NCBI RefSeq assembly: GCF_947077765.1
Contig: NZ_CAMTTF010000002.1
Coordinates: forward strand, 620,001 to 684,000
Direction: 5' to 3'
DNA length: 64,000 nucleotides
Source of the DNA: Salinibacter grassmerensis
GTDB lineage: Bacteria > Bacteroidota > Rhodothermia > Rhodothermales > Salinibacteraceae
The notes under the pieces were generated by a model. The model saw only the letters and a list, made by a program, of their open reading frames with translations, did not search any database and had not been told where the DNA came from. Of this stretch, positions 52,110-57,099 are shown piece after piece. Numbering within the stretch: position 1 is the first letter of the stretch; the number at the start of each line of letters is the position of its first letter. A program made the translations under genes and the position numbers.

Positions 52110-52502
52110 ATGGCGCATCCGTCCGTTCCGTCCGACAAAACGAAAGGCCAAATCGAGGCCGCGGTTACCGAGGCCATCACGCAGTTTGAGCGGGACTATT
52201 TAGGCCGGGGGCCGAAGCAGGCGAAATCCTTTGTCGTCGAGAACCTGGTCATCGTCAAGCTGCAGGGCATTCTGAGCCCGGCGGAGCGCCAGTTGAGTCA
52301 CGAGAACGGAGGGGTGGAGCTCATCAAGAAGATGCGCACGCGACTGATTGAGAGCTCCAGCGAGGATCTATCCGACCTCGTGGCGGACGAGACGGGGATC
52401 GACGTCGTCAGCATGCACACCGACATCAGCGCCCGGACCGGCGAGCGCGTCTTTGTCTTTAGCCTCGACGCGGACCTGGAAACCGCCCTGCAAAACCGAT
52501 AA
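52110..52502 (+). CDS. mpsC: MpsC/DUF2294 protein
   Basis: 130 residues matching DUF2294 (MpsC): 'TEAITQFERDYLGRGPKQAK', 'VIVKLQGILSPAERQLSH', 'DVVSMHTDISARTGERVFVF'. MpsC is the small third component of the MpsABC system, whose A and B parts are the DabB- and DabA-type bicarbonate-uptake pair encoded immediately downstream. Its biochemical function is not known. A structured RNA region separates it from dabB. Confidence 0.82.
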   Translation: MAHPSVPSDKTKGQIEAAVTEAITQFERDYLGRGPKQAKSFVVENLVIVKLQGILSPAERQLSHENGGVELIKKMRTRLIESSSEDLSDLVADETGIDVVSMHTDISARTGERVFVFSLDADLETALQNR

Positions 52503-52569
52503 GAACCCCCCGTAAAGTTTCGGTGAGAGTGGGGAGGAGCCCTTGTTCCGTTCACAGACGGGGCATATG

Positions 52570-52648
52570 TTTGCGTTTGGCTGATGAAACGGAGCGCCCA
52601 TGGGGCGGGCCGGCTCTTCAGCCTCCTTATTCTGCTCCGGCACGCAAG
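52570..52648 (+). ncRNA. Candidate cis-regulatory RNA upstream of dabBA
   Basis: P1: TTTGCGT (52570-52576) with ACGCAAG (52642-52648). P2: CGGAGC (52590-52595) with GCTCCG (52634-52639). Inside P2 are two hairpins, GCCC-ATG-GGGC (52596-52606) and GGCT-CTTC-AGCC (52612-52623), giving a three-way junction. It is followed by an intrinsic terminator, the usual layout of a riboswitch or attenuator. It matches no riboswitch consensus known to me. Confidence 0.45.
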
Positions 52649-52688
52649 CCGCGCACACGCTCGACCCGGGCGGGTGCAACGACTGTAG

Positions 52689-52732
52689 GCCGACATTCAG
52701 CGCTCTGGTAGCGCTGCGTGTCGGTCTTTTTT
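52689..52732 (+). terminator. Intrinsic terminator in the dab leader
   Basis: GCCGACA pairs with TGTCGGT (52689-52695 with 52719-52725). AGCGCT pairs with AGCGCT (52699-52704 with 52710-52715) around a 5-nt loop. A TTTTTTG tract follows. It lies 78 bp before the dabB start, so it either ends the mpsC transcript or attenuates dabBA. Confidence 0.85.
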
Positions 52733-52809
52733 GTTTGTGGGGCGCCTTCGGGCCCAGGTGCACGGAGCAGTCGCCAAACGACATTGTGCGCATTGACCCT
52801 CGACACTGG

Positions 52810-54249
52810 ATGTCCCGATCCACCTCCTCGGCTCTGCCGCTCGTGTGTACGCGTCTCGCGTGGGGCCTCTTTGCCCTCAGCCTTAGCCTGCTCGTCTGGG
52901 CCCCGGATCCGGAGTGGGCCGGTGACGCCTTCCTACGGGCCGATGGCCTCACCCGAGTGATGGCGCTCGTGACGACGTTTGTGAGTGGCATCGTGCACAG
53001 CTTTTCGCGCCGGTACATGGCGGGGGCGAAGCGCCTGGACGCCTTCTATATCCGCCTCTTCGGGCTCACGCTGATCGTGCTGGTGTTGACGGCGGCCAAC
53101 CACCTCGTTTTGTTTGCGGGGGCGTGGGCGGCGATGGGCTGGGTGCTGGCCGATCTGATTGGACACGTCCGGGGCTGGCCGCAGGCGCGGGCGGCCTCGC
53201 GGTACGCCCGGCAGCATTTCCTCGGGGGCAGCGCCCTGCTGGCGGGCGCGCTCGGGCTGCTGGGGGGGAGCGCGGGAGCGTGGACCATTAGCGGCGTACT
53301 GGCGGCCACGGGGACGCTCCCGACGCTCGTCGTGGCGGGGGCTGCCGGCCTGCTGCTCCTCGCCGCGATGGTGCAGTCGGCCCTGGTGCCGTTTCACCGG
53401 TGGCTGCTCTCGTCGATGACGGCCCCGACTCCGGTCTCCGGGTTCATGCACGCGGGCCTCGTGAACGCGGGTGGGGTGCTCCTTGCGCGGTTTGCGCCCG
53501 TCGTGTTCGAGCTGCCCGCCGTGATGTGGGCCATCGTTCTTGTGGGGGGCGTCAGTGCGCTGCTGGGGCAGGCCTGGATGCTCGTGCAGACCGACGTGAA
53601 GCGGCAACTAGGCTCCTCTACGGTGGCCCAGATGGGGTTCATGGTGCTGCAGTGCGGGCTGGGCTTCGTGCCCGCCGCCATTGCCCACCTGATCCTGCAC
53701 GGGTTCTACAAGGCCTATCTCTTCCTCGCGGCCGGGTCGGCGGTGGAGCACACCACGCCGGAGCGCCCCGAGGCCCCGAGCACGGGGGTGACTGGGGGGC
53801 TCGTCACGGCGGCCACGGCAGTCGGAGGGGGCGCCCTGTTTGCCGTGCTTACGGGCAAGTCGCTGACTGCCCTCAACAGTGGGACCGTGCTCGTGCTCTT
53901 CGTGGTGCTGGCGGTTCTGCACGCCACCCGCACGCTCGTGCGGCGCACATCGCTCCCCCGATCTGTGCGCACCTGGCTCATCCCAGTCGTCCTGTTGCCC
54001 ACCCTGGTGCTGTATGCTGGTGTCTACAAGGGTGTGGGGGCGCTCTTTTCGGACGTGCCCTCGGCCGTAACCCCCACCGGCCTCACGCCGCTGCACGGAG
54101 CGCTCCTGGCGGTCTTCGGGGTGGCTTACATCGCCATGGAGCGCGGGTGGCACCGGGCCAGCACGCGCCTCTACGTGACGCTTCGCAATACGGCCCAGCC
54201 CCTCTCGACTACGCTTCTCAACAACCGCGACCAGTACAATGCCCATTGA
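52810..54249 (+). CDS. dabB: DabB/MpsA: NuoL-type cation-translocating subunit of inorganic carbon transporter
   Basis: 479-residue polytopic protein of the proton-conducting transporter family. The signature 'LVPFHRWLLSSMTAPTPVSG' continues 'FMHAGLVNAGGVLLARFAPV', with 'LLGQAWMLVQTDVKRQLGSS' and 'AHLILHGFYKAYLFLAAGSA' downstream. It is paired with the DUF2309 protein, not with Nuo genes, so it is the energy-coupling half of the DabAB (MpsAB) bicarbonate/CO2 uptake system. ATG 52810 is chosen because the upstream frame runs through the leader RNA. The last 11 bases overlap dabA, implying translational coupling. Confidence 0.92.
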   Translation: MSRSTSSALPLVCTRLAWGLFALSLSLLVWAPDPEWAGDAFLRADGLTRVMALVTTFVSGIVHSFSRRYMAGAKRLDAFYIRLFGLTLIVLVLTAANHLVLFAGAWAAMGWVLADLIGHVRGWPQARAASRYARQHFLGGSALLAGALGLLGGSAGAWTISGVLAATGTLPTLVVAGAAGLLLLAAMVQSALVPFHRWLLSSMTAPTPVSGFMHAGLVNAGGVLLARFAPVVFELPAVMWAIVLVGGVSALLGQAWMLVQTDVKRQLGSSTVAQMGFMVLQCGLGFVPAAIAHLILHGFYKAYLFLAAGSAVEHTTPERPEAPSTGVTGGLVTAATAVGGGALFAVLTGKSLTALNSGTVLVLFVVLAVLHATRTLVRRTSLPRSVRTWLIPVVLLPTLVLYAGVYKGVGALFSDVPSAVTPTGLTPLHGALLAVFGVAYIAMERGWHRASTRLYVTLRNTAQPLSTTLLNNRDQYNAH

Positions 54250-56728
54250 CCGATCGGTGGTGCGGGCCCGCATCGAGAACGCCGCCGAATACGTGGGGCC
54301 GCTCTGGCCCCTGAAGACCTTCAACGCGGCCAATCCGCTCCTGGGCTTTGAGGACCAGCCGTTCGACCGGGCGGTCCAGAAGGCCGGGCAGCTCTTCGGG
54401 GGGCGGGGCTACCCGGGCCCGAAGGCGTTTCGTCAGGCGTGGGAGAACGGCGAGATTGACGCCGACGTGTTGACACGCCACCTCGCCGAGCATGGCATCA
54501 CGGAGCGCCCCGAGGTCCTGTTGGACAGGATGGACGCCGACGCTGAGAACCGCGATGTGGCGCCTGCCGACCAGCCGCTCGACCGCGTGCTGACGAAGTG
54601 GCTCGCGGCCTTTCTGGATCAGGGGCAGGCCGCCTGGTCCATGCCGAACCGGGAGGACGGCTTCTACGCAGCATGGCGGACGGTGGCCCCCTACGACGGG
54701 AACATCCCCGGCGTCGACCGCCCCTCGGACCTGCCCGGCACCGTGGTCGAGGCGTTCGAGTCGGTCCTGGAGAGCTACCCGGAGGCGCGCTGGGAGCCGA
54801 TTTTCGTGCACCACCTGACGGCACTGCCGGGGTGGACGGGCTTCATCAAGTGGCGGTCGCGGCGTGCCGACACGGCGTGGCAGGCCGCCCACCCCATCAC
54901 ACTTGCCGAGTACCTGGCGGTGCGCCTTGCCCTCGCTGACCGGATGGGGGCGGCCATCGCGCCGGACCGGACCGACGAGCTGCCGACGAACGGCACCGAC
55001 CGGCCCGTCCTGCCCCGCATCTGGCTGCGGGCCTGGGAGGAGAGCTACCGCACACGCCTGCTGGACGACCTGCGGCAGACGCAACAGACGCAGTCGTCGG
55101 CGTCGGACGCGGGGCGCCCGGACGCCCAGCTGGTGTTCTGCATCGACACGCGGTCGGAGGTCATCCGGCGCCACATCGAGCAGCAGGGCTCGTACGAGAC
55201 CCATGGCTACGCGGGCTTCTTCGGGGTCCCCATGCAGCATCAGCCCTACGGCACGGAGGAGCGGGTGAAGTCCTGCCCGCCGATCGTGGACCCGAAGCAC
55301 CGGATTGTGGAGCGGCCCGCCGAGCAGCATCGAGGCCAGGCCGACCGGTACGACTGGTGGACCCGATTGGGGAAGGCGGGGACCACGCTCCTGAAGACGC
55401 TCAAGAAAAACGTCGCGGCAGTGTTTGGCTTCGTAGAGGGGAGTGGGGGCGTCTTCGGGGCGGCAATGGCGGCGCGGACCCTTGCCCCGTCTGGGCTGTC
55501 CCGCCTGGCCCAATCCCTGAACGACTGGCTGCCGGGCCCGGAGTCGTTCTGCGAGCCGACCGTGGACCGAACCTCTGTCATCGACGCGGACACGGAGGAC
55601 GGCCTGCCCGTGGGACTCTCCGACGAGGCGAAGGTGCTCTACGCCGAGGCCGCCTTCCGCCTCATGGGCTGGACGGACACCTTTGCGCCGGTCGTCGTGT
55701 TCACCGGGCACGGCAGCCAAACCCCCAACAACCCGTACAAGGCCAGCCTCGACTGCGGGGCATGCGCCGGCAATCCGGGCGGGCCCAACGCCCGCGTGCT
55801 GGCCGCAATCTGCAACGAGGACGCCGTGCAGGAGGCCCTGCGGGAGCGCGGCATCGACATTCCGGACGACACTGTTTTTCTCGCCGGACAGCACAACACG
55901 ACGACCGACGAGATTGCCCTTTTCGTGGACGCGGACGATCCGCCCGTCGCCCCCGAGGTGCTCGATCGCCTGCGGGGCGACCTGCGCGCGGCCCAGGCCG
56001 ACGCGGCCACCGAGCGGGTCCGCACCCTGAACACGACCGTCGACGAGGGGCGCCCGGCGGCGGCCGTGCGGGAGACGGAGCGCCGAGCGGCCGACTGGGC
56101 AGAAACGCGGCCGGAGTGGGGGCTGGCCGGCAACGCCGCCTTCATCGTGGGCCCCCGCGAGCTGACCCGCGGGATCGACCTCGACGGGCGGTGCTTCCTG
56201 CACTCCTACGACTGGGCGACGGACGACGACGGCACGGCCCTGGAGAACATCATGACCGGCCCGCTGGTGGTGGGGGAGTGGATTAACACGCAGTACTACT
56301 TTTCCACGATTGACAACGCCGCCTACGGCAGTGGGTCGAAGGTGACCCAGAACGTGGTGGGCAAGTTGGGCGTGGTGCAGGGCAATGGGGGAGACCTCAT
56401 GAGCGGCCTGCCCCTGCAATCGTTAAAGGCCGACGACGAGCATGTCTACCACCGGCCGCTCCGCCTCATGGCCCTCATCCAGGCGCCCACGGACCGCGTC
56501 GAGGCCATCCTCGACCGCCACGCCGCCCTGGCCCACCTCTTCGACCACGAGTGGATGCACCTCACGGTCATGGACCCGGAGCAGGACGACGCGTTCGTGC
56601 GCTACCAGCCCGGTGGGGAATGGCACGTACAACCCGCCCCCGACGCGTCAACAGTAACGAAGGCGCCGGCATCCGCCGGGGGGCGTCCTGAGGCGAGAGG
56701 ACCCACATCGCACCCTGAGTCGAATTGA
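54239..56728 (+). CDS. dabA: DabA/MpsB (DUF2309): carbonic-anhydrase-like inorganic carbon transporter subunit
   Basis: 829 residues. The predicted beta-carbonic-anhydrase-like zinc site is formed by Cys301 and Asp303 ('LVFCIDTRSEVIRRHIEQQG') and His491 and Cys506 ('FTGHGSQTPNNPYKASLDCG'). The Cys-Asp (2) and His-Cys (15) spacings equal those known from Halothiobacillus DabA. 'GFFGVPMQHQPYG' and 'NVVGKLGVVQGNGGDLMSGL' are family blocks. With DabB it would concentrate bicarbonate in the cytosol. Confidence 0.95.
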   Translation: MPIDRSVVRARIENAAEYVGPLWPLKTFNAANPLLGFEDQPFDRAVQKAGQLFGGRGYPGPKAFRQAWENGEIDADVLTRHLAEHGITERPEVLLDRMDADAENRDVAPADQPLDRVLTKWLAAFLDQGQAAWSMPNREDGFYAAWRTVAPYDGNIPGVDRPSDLPGTVVEAFESVLESYPEARWEPIFVHHLTALPGWTGFIKWRSRRADTAWQAAHPITLAEYLAVRLALADRMGAAIAPDRTDELPTNGTDRPVLPRIWLRAWEESYRTRLLDDLRQTQQTQSSASDAGRPDAQLVFCIDTRSEVIRRHIEQQGSYETHGYAGFFGVPMQHQPYGTEERVKSCPPIVDPKHRIVERPAEQHRGQADRYDWWTRLGKAGTTLLKTLKKNVAAVFGFVEGSGGVFGAAMAARTLAPSGLSRLAQSLNDWLPGPESFCEPTVDRTSVIDADTEDGLPVGLSDEAKVLYAEAAFRLMGWTDTFAPVVVFTGHGSQTPNNPYKASLDCGACAGNPGGPNARVLAAICNEDAVQEALRERGIDIPDDTVFLAGQHNTTTDEIALFVDADDPPVAPEVLDRLRGDLRAAQADAATERVRTLNTTVDEGRPAAAVRETERRAADWAETRPEWGLAGNAAFIVGPRELTRGIDLDGRCFLHSYDWATDDDGTALENIMTGPLVVGEWINTQYYFSTIDNAAYGSGSKVTQNVVGKLGVVQGNGGDLMSGLPLQSLKADDEHVYHRPLRLMALIQAPTDRVEAILDRHAALAHLFDHEWMHLTVMDPEQDDAFVRYQPGGEWHVQPAPDASTVTKAPASAGGRPEARGPTSHPESN

Positions 56729-56742
56729 GACCGTACATTTCC

Positions 56743-57099
56743 ATGAGCGACGACACGAACCACGAGGACACGCAGCACACGCTGCACCCGCTCAAAAAAA
56801 TCGAGATCATCGTGCGGGGCGAGAAAGAGCCCTTCGTGAAAGACCTCCTCGATGAGTCGACGGTGAGCGGGTACACGATCCACCACAACGTGACCGGTCG
56901 CGGCGAGCACGGCTTCCACGAAGGCCGCCTGCTCTTCAACGACCGGGACGGCCTGGTCATGTTCTTTGCCGTCGGCCAGGAGGAGGCCATCCAGACCATC
57001 GTGGACGGCCTCACGCCCCTCTTCGAGAAGAGCTCGGGCGTGATGTTCGTCTCCGATACCCAGGTCGTCCGGCTCGATAAATTCCAGCAGGAGGACTGA
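56743..57099 (+). CDS. PII-like regulatory protein of the dab operon
   Basis: 118 residues with the beta-alpha-beta pattern of PII-like (CPII) proteins: 'PLKKIEIIVRGEKEPFVKDL', 'GYTIHHNVTGRGEHGFHEGR', 'LFNDRDGLVMFFAVGQEEAI' and 'GVMFVSDTQVVRLDKFQ'. PII-like proteins are known partners of bicarbonate transporters and sense adenine nucleotides or bicarbonate. It starts 14 bp after dabA, strongly suggesting control of DabAB. A CGTGTCC-N5-GGACACG hairpin (57101-57119) ends the operon. Confidence 0.82.
   Translation: MSDDTNHEDTQHTLHPLKKIEIIVRGEKEPFVKDLLDESTVSGYTIHHNVTGRGEHGFHEGRLLFNDRDGLVMFFAVGQEEAIQTIVDGLTPLFEKSSGVMFVSDTQVVRLDKFQQED

Follow-up and report, generated by a model that had tools for sequence, protein, structure and literature searches.

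The window analysed here, a stretch of 64,000 nucleotides from the genome of Salinibacter grassmerensis, carries the gene pair dabBA for inorganic-carbon uptake, and between these genes and the preceding mpsC lies an intergenic region; the following elements, all on the plus strand, can be recognized in it and around it.

52110 to 52502, plus strand: mpsC (DUF2294, PF10057; Pfam E-value 5.7e-34), directly 5' of the leader
52512 to 52527, plus strand: conserved box GTAAAGTTTCGGTGAG (consensus approximately GTGAACTTTCGGTAAG), identified in the intergenic sequences of relatives, 5' of the -35 hexamer
52543 to 52548, plus strand: putative -35 hexamer TTGTTC, its TTG keeping a constant distance to P0 across nearly all 20 relatives scanned
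52566 to 52571, plus strand: putative -10 hexamer TATGTT after a spacer of 17, conserved in position and sequence
52579 to 52623, plus strand: P0 hairpin with a symmetric AG/AG-type internal loop, 6 of 13 pairs changed on both sides, observed in Rhodothermales only
52638 to 52692, plus strand: rod, the predicted antiterminator, with P1 (52638-52641/52689-52692) and P3 (52653-52656/52674-52677 and 52658-52663/52667-52672)
52648 to 52651, plus strand: GCCG, predicted to pair with the P1 5' arm (52638-52641) instead when the terminator is formed, from the minimum free energy (MFE) fold of the full leader
52687 to 52732, plus strand: intrinsic terminator, stem 52687-52727 and U-tract to 52732, present in all aligned relatives
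52809 to 54249, plus strand: dabB (Proton_antipo_M, Pfam), the proposed first gene under leader control
54239 to 56728, plus strand: dabA (Pfam PF10070, E-value 9e-268)
56725 to 57099, plus strand: P-II-like regulator gene (Pfam PF00543), overlapping the end of dabA

The promoter (52543-52571) directly follows mpsC and was overlooked in an earlier note on this DNA. In nearly all of 20 genomes a TTG-N20-TAnnnT promoter stands at fixed spacing, from about 35 to 6 nt 5' of P0, and since this spacing is constant, the start of P0 should approximate the start of the RNA, which we infer from sequence to lie at about 52578. Most relatives have the conserved box behind the mpsC stop codon, some 20 nt 5' of the -35 hexamer; it may be an operator or an UP element.

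The leader is larger than the earlier note described. That note proposed a three-way junction at 52570-52648, of which the long hairpin at 52579-52623, making up most of the fold, is retained and the junction itself is not: the closing helix at 52571-52576 overlaps the -10 hexamer, precedes the likely start at 52578 and is not conserved in relatives, and the 3' bases ACGCAAG (52642-52648) belong to the conserved rod at 52638-52692, which had gone unseen. The strong intrinsic terminator that the note described is borne out by a folding z-score of -4.9, none of 200 shuffled sequences being as good, and the 238-nt leader as a whole also folds better than shuffled sequences (z -2.95). As described, dabB begins shortly downstream, its ATG at 52809 lying 76 nt past the U-tract, and no good promoter intervenes: the best promoter-like match in this interval of the window agrees at 7 of 12 positions, and a separate promoter scan found none there. 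The distance from the U-tract to the start codon shrinks to 35–38 nt in three relatives (G013, G015 and G026), a gap that leaves little room for an additional promoter.

The closing stem P1 of the rod (CGGC/GCCG) shares its 3' side with the base of the terminator 5' arm, and because P1 occupies that base, rod and terminator are mutually exclusive. A hairpin at 52638-52651 was considered as the sole partner of the P1 5' arm and set aside; it corresponds to the alternative pairing of the terminator state, whereas comparison across lineages favours the rod. For transcripts of the window leader, the predicted MFE fold is the rod at most lengths from 52692 to 52718, after which the terminator takes over; for the full leader, energies calculated for the RNA alone, ignoring proteins, salt and kinetics, are -78.5 kcal/mol with the terminator and -69.2 kcal/mol with the rod, placing the terminator ahead by 9.3 kcal/mol. 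The same behaviour is predicted across the collection, where the rod is closed in all 48 leaders cut before the terminator 3' arm (shuffled cores close it in 27%) and 43 of the 48 refold into the terminator at full length, with a median gap of 3.7 kcal/mol; the five that do not refold have a gap of 0, probably because the script clipped the T-run prematurely. Mutually exclusive antiterminator and terminator structures, the hallmark of a transcription attenuator, are thus predicted throughout, and according to these models a few kcal/mol of stabilization of the rod by an effector would abolish termination.

Covariation in relatives, which the earlier note had named beforehand as one test of its proposal, is present; its other test concerned a promoter between terminator and dabB, where, as stated above, no good candidate occurs. 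Across lineages, 9 of the 12 rod pairs show changes on both sides, 91% of the rod cells in the alignment are paired compared with 76% in shuffles and at most 40% when the pairing is slid, and cells with changes on both sides number 114 against 30 in the shuffles. For P0 and P3 together within Rhodothermales, both-sided changes affect 9 of 21 pairs, and 95% of cells are paired, a share that falls to 88% in shuffles and to 42% or less when the pairing is slid. Within this order P1 hardly varies, its covariation coming from the other lineages. The element thus shows the conserved, covarying leader structure that is characteristic of riboswitches. Ribosome-dependent attenuation via a leader peptide is hardly credible: an ATG-started frame does cross the window leader, but relatives do not conserve its ATG at 52600, and the rods, about 50 nt long, contain no conserved reading frame.

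Within Rhodothermales, 60 related genomes were searched at the DNA level and 18 contained a match, every one downstream of mpsC. A model (R1) built from 16 well-aligning sequences places the element in at least 20 of 114 genomes of the order, with one real copy each, among them three genomes absent from its training (G015, G021 and G033); the genome searches score only part of the first-look candidates, so that the counts given here are lower bounds. Among the candidates scored over 296 genomes of the phylum, nothing credible was found outside the order; two matches with E < 0.01, in G263 and G066, look spurious. In the order the element is always located 3' of mpsC, and the genes it heads are dabBA, icd or terB-icd. 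Salinibacter and several related genera have dabB as the next gene; in four genomes (G013, G015, G026 and G033) this position is taken by icd, encoding NADP-isocitrate dehydrogenase. In the first three of these, dabA follows further down on the same strand, giving a cluster of mpsC, RNA, icd and, at a distance, dabA; G033 has the RNA and icd and lacks dabA. In G047 a TerB-like gene stands between the RNA (52.5 bits) and icd, and in G281 a diverged copy precedes a beta-carbonic anhydrase gene.

Outside the phylum, a search for MpsC relatives with one genome per species yielded 80 loci, many of which contain a leader and terminator of the same layout, either after mpsC or before a dabB-dabA-mpsC operon. 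When about 34 such sequences were folded one at a time, they arrived at a common rod: GGY, 2 nt, AC, 3 nt, a helix, an internal loop, a helix and a loop, returning to GU-AA-RCC, in which the RCC is the base of the terminator. The genes that follow, as identified by Pfam, encode SbtA (PF05982), DabB, beta-carbonic anhydrase, a hexapeptide (gamma-type) protein, GTP-dependent PEPCK, monomeric isocitrate dehydrogenase, OadB (OAD_beta), HMGL-like and DUF4914 proteins, and MpsC itself. A metabolic theme shared by the downstream genes, as expected of a riboswitch, can be recognized in CO2 and bicarbonate; greA and the HMGL-like and DUF4914 genes have no obvious place in it. DUF4914 (PF16260) is a large protein encoded after leader-like sequences in Omnitrophota and Spirochaetes (L114 and L125), and is possibly a CO2-related enzyme. 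The scope of Rhodothermota that the earlier note set for its comparison is therefore too narrow, since many lineages have similar leaders in front of dabB, sbtA and the genes for carbonic anhydrase and CO2-releasing enzymes.

A second model (R2; 16 sequences, seeded from mpsC loci) was run on both strands of 597 kb of MpsC loci and gave 36 matches, each of them on the strand that encodes mpsC. In whole genomes it detected at least 23 of 101 members of one family and at least 4 of 99 of another order, as well as a second copy heading a separate dabB operon in G466. Its match in L174 is false and corresponds to a CRISPR array with the repeat GTTTCAATGCCTCGTAGGTAGATTATAAAC. Candidates based on the pattern alone and lacking model support (L103, L115, L120, L125, L151, L153 and others) are suggestive only. 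A third, Bacilli-dominated model (R3) matched at least 39 of 348 genomes of the class. These genome-wide searches recovered 52 Bacilli loci, and all of the copies stand before dabB (35), sbtA (16) or a ybcF-like gene (1); 32 of the 52 have no mpsC immediately upstream. Tandem pairs of leaders before a single gene were observed in three places (L094 5399-5569; G908:C2:1382977-1383108; G783:C96:7632-7764). In Bacillus solitudinis (L097, positions 5395 and 6213) a stretch comprising the mpsC end and the RNA is repeated and the sbtA frame ends in an MpsC fragment, which looks like a local duplication.

Between phyla the models give weak signals: none of the Rhodothermales leaders is matched significantly by R3, and only in the Rhodothermales intermediate G281 does the best hit fall at the correct place (12.9 bits, E 0.49); in the other direction, R1 has a weak match at the correct place in L095 (E 0.66). 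Layout, position and associated genes, rather than a significant model score, lead us to regard the window copy as probably a homologue of the Bacilli family; by architecture, position and gene context, the leaders of the different phyla probably constitute one family.

Two further explanations can be weighed against this distribution. If the RNA were the product of a stand-alone small RNA gene, the identity of the downstream gene would be incidental, which would agree with the element having its own promoter and terminator in Rhodothermales and with the variation of the downstream gene between genera. Such a gene is improbable, given that all 52 Bacilli matches precede dabB, sbtA or a ybcF-like gene, that in several genomes terminator and start codon lie too close together to accommodate another promoter, and that the mutual exclusion of rod and terminator is conserved. 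It is more improbable still that the terminator merely ends mpsC transcription and that dabBA has a promoter of its own: the terminator does sit after mpsC both here and in loci of the sbtA type, but the 32 Bacilli copies lacking an upstream mpsC, the absence of a good promoter 3' of the terminator in the window and the conservation of a covarying rod, needless for a plain terminator, all speak against it.

Taken together, covariation, gene context and the lack of a matching Rfam class support the earlier note's proposal of a new riboswitch or attenuator controlling dabBA, and we consider that the leader probably belongs to a new RNA class and acts in cis as a transcription attenuator, adjusting (on this reading, raising) the supply of inorganic carbon, an assessment that pertains to the attenuator and not to its effector. 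According to the proposed mechanism, transcription would begin at about 52578 and the rod (52638-52692) would fold first, its closing stem holding the base of the terminator 5' arm. While the rod stays closed, the terminator would be kept off its U-tract, allowing read-through into dabBA and the P-II gene; unaided, the terminator would prevail by several kcal/mol and transcription would end at about 52732. An effector that stabilizes the rod under inorganic-carbon shortage would accordingly switch the operon on. The direction of control would follow from the modelled folds: since read-through goes with a closed rod, a shortage is what the effector would be expected to report. The supply theme derives from the genes themselves, which function in uptake (dabBA, sbtA), as carbonic anhydrase and in CO2 release (two unrelated isocitrate dehydrogenases, PEPCK and OadB after the leaders), and the signal presumably reflects CO2 or bicarbonate status. 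The product of the P-II-like gene (56725-57099) could act on the pump at the protein level.

As to the effector, a directly bound small molecule, which would make the leader a riboswitch, is a candidate with about an even prospect of being correct and is slightly favoured over MpsC. That the rod is, more specifically, an aptamer for inorganic carbon (bicarbonate or CO2) or for a metabolite reporting its shortage, serving carbon-supply genes in many phyla, is a tentative suggestion. Protein-dependent antitermination, in which a protein, most likely MpsC (DUF2294), would bind the rod and keep the antiterminator closed in the manner of BglG or LicT, is conceivable, if somewhat doubtful. MpsC is the constant neighbour while the downstream genes vary; in two groups of Bacilli genomes, 27 of the 29 RNA copies share their locus with DUF2294, as do most loci of a second Bacilli set; the RNA precedes mpsC genes themselves as well; a rod overlapping the terminator 5' arm is generally known as the layout of BglG/LicT-like systems; and in Staphylococcus aureus the activity of mpsAB is independent of MpsC, the deletion of which causes no growth defect (PMC6689103). 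Against this, G515 retains the RNA before dabBA, yet no DUF2294 was found in its genome, three other genomes (G507, G994 and G848) lack DUF2294 in the locus, and many genomes encoding DUF2294 gave no RNA match. The structure model of MpsC (pLDDT 92) has no clear match to an RNA-binding fold, which carries little weight either way, the TRAPP-like, FtsK and permuted-S6 entries of the fold search all having Z < 7 and being uninformative. No BglG-type antiterminator gene was found by Pfam among eight neighbouring window proteins, and no MpsC relatives were found in viral contigs. The loci L199 (G515) and L202 (G587) are very similar, with G515 lacking mpsC and keeping the RNA, dabB and dabA, so that this pair is a natural test of the need for MpsC. 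We also observe that mpsC lies beside dabBA or sbtA in many lineages (window 52110-52502; L131, L139 and other Bacilli loci); the S. aureus study states that mpsC is not collocated with mpsAB outside staphylococci (PMC6689103).

How heterotrophic bacteria sense a shortage of CO2 or bicarbonate is poorly known, and dabBA/mpsAB, sbtA and carbonic anhydrase support their growth in air. A common leader on supply genes and genes for CO2-releasing enzymes would define an inorganic-carbon regulon, the sensor of which would be directly testable in Bacillus. Should the effector be a small molecule, the leader would represent a new riboswitch class; if MpsC binds the rod instead, it would be a regulator and not a part of the transporter.

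Comparison with known RNAs is consistent with a new class. At the gathering score, Rfam gave no match in the window and none in 144 kb of relatives (sixteen loci scanned), which agrees with the earlier note; at a permissive threshold, only chance-level matches appeared, one of them (bglG-cis-reg) similar in layout. In the openly accessible literature searched we found no paper on DUF2294 or on a bicarbonate/CO2 riboswitch. In the BglG/SacY/LicT systems, the ribonucleic antiterminator (RAT) is a rod-like hairpin with internal loops, and the 5' arm of the intrinsic terminator forms part of it. The antiterminator hairpin described here overlaps the terminator 5' arm likewise, but the rod is longer, its sequence is different and the neighbouring protein is MpsC; with the Rfam bglG-cis-reg model, a Bacilli copy scores 18.9 bits against a cut-off of 80 and the window gives no match to the RAT sequence. 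Isocitrate dehydrogenase genes of Proteobacteria also have orphan leaders, the riboswitch candidates icd and icd-II; these are reported to form three-stem junctions, with icd-II working at the ribosome site (PMC8632094), and the present leader has no Rfam match. The S. aureus mpsABC genes are the same as those studied here (dabB = mpsA, dabA = mpsB, mpsC), although a leader RNA was not reported there; mpsA expression was lower in 5% CO2, significantly so in one of three strains (PMC6689103). In Bacillus subtilis, ndhF-ybcC (dabBA) is seven-fold up in the absence of c-di-AMP (PMC7857571). The present RNA, a candidate riboswitch that fits no Rfam class, shares with terminator-type riboswitches a conserved structured leader, predicted antiterminator and terminator folds that exclude each other, and a metabolically coherent set of genes.
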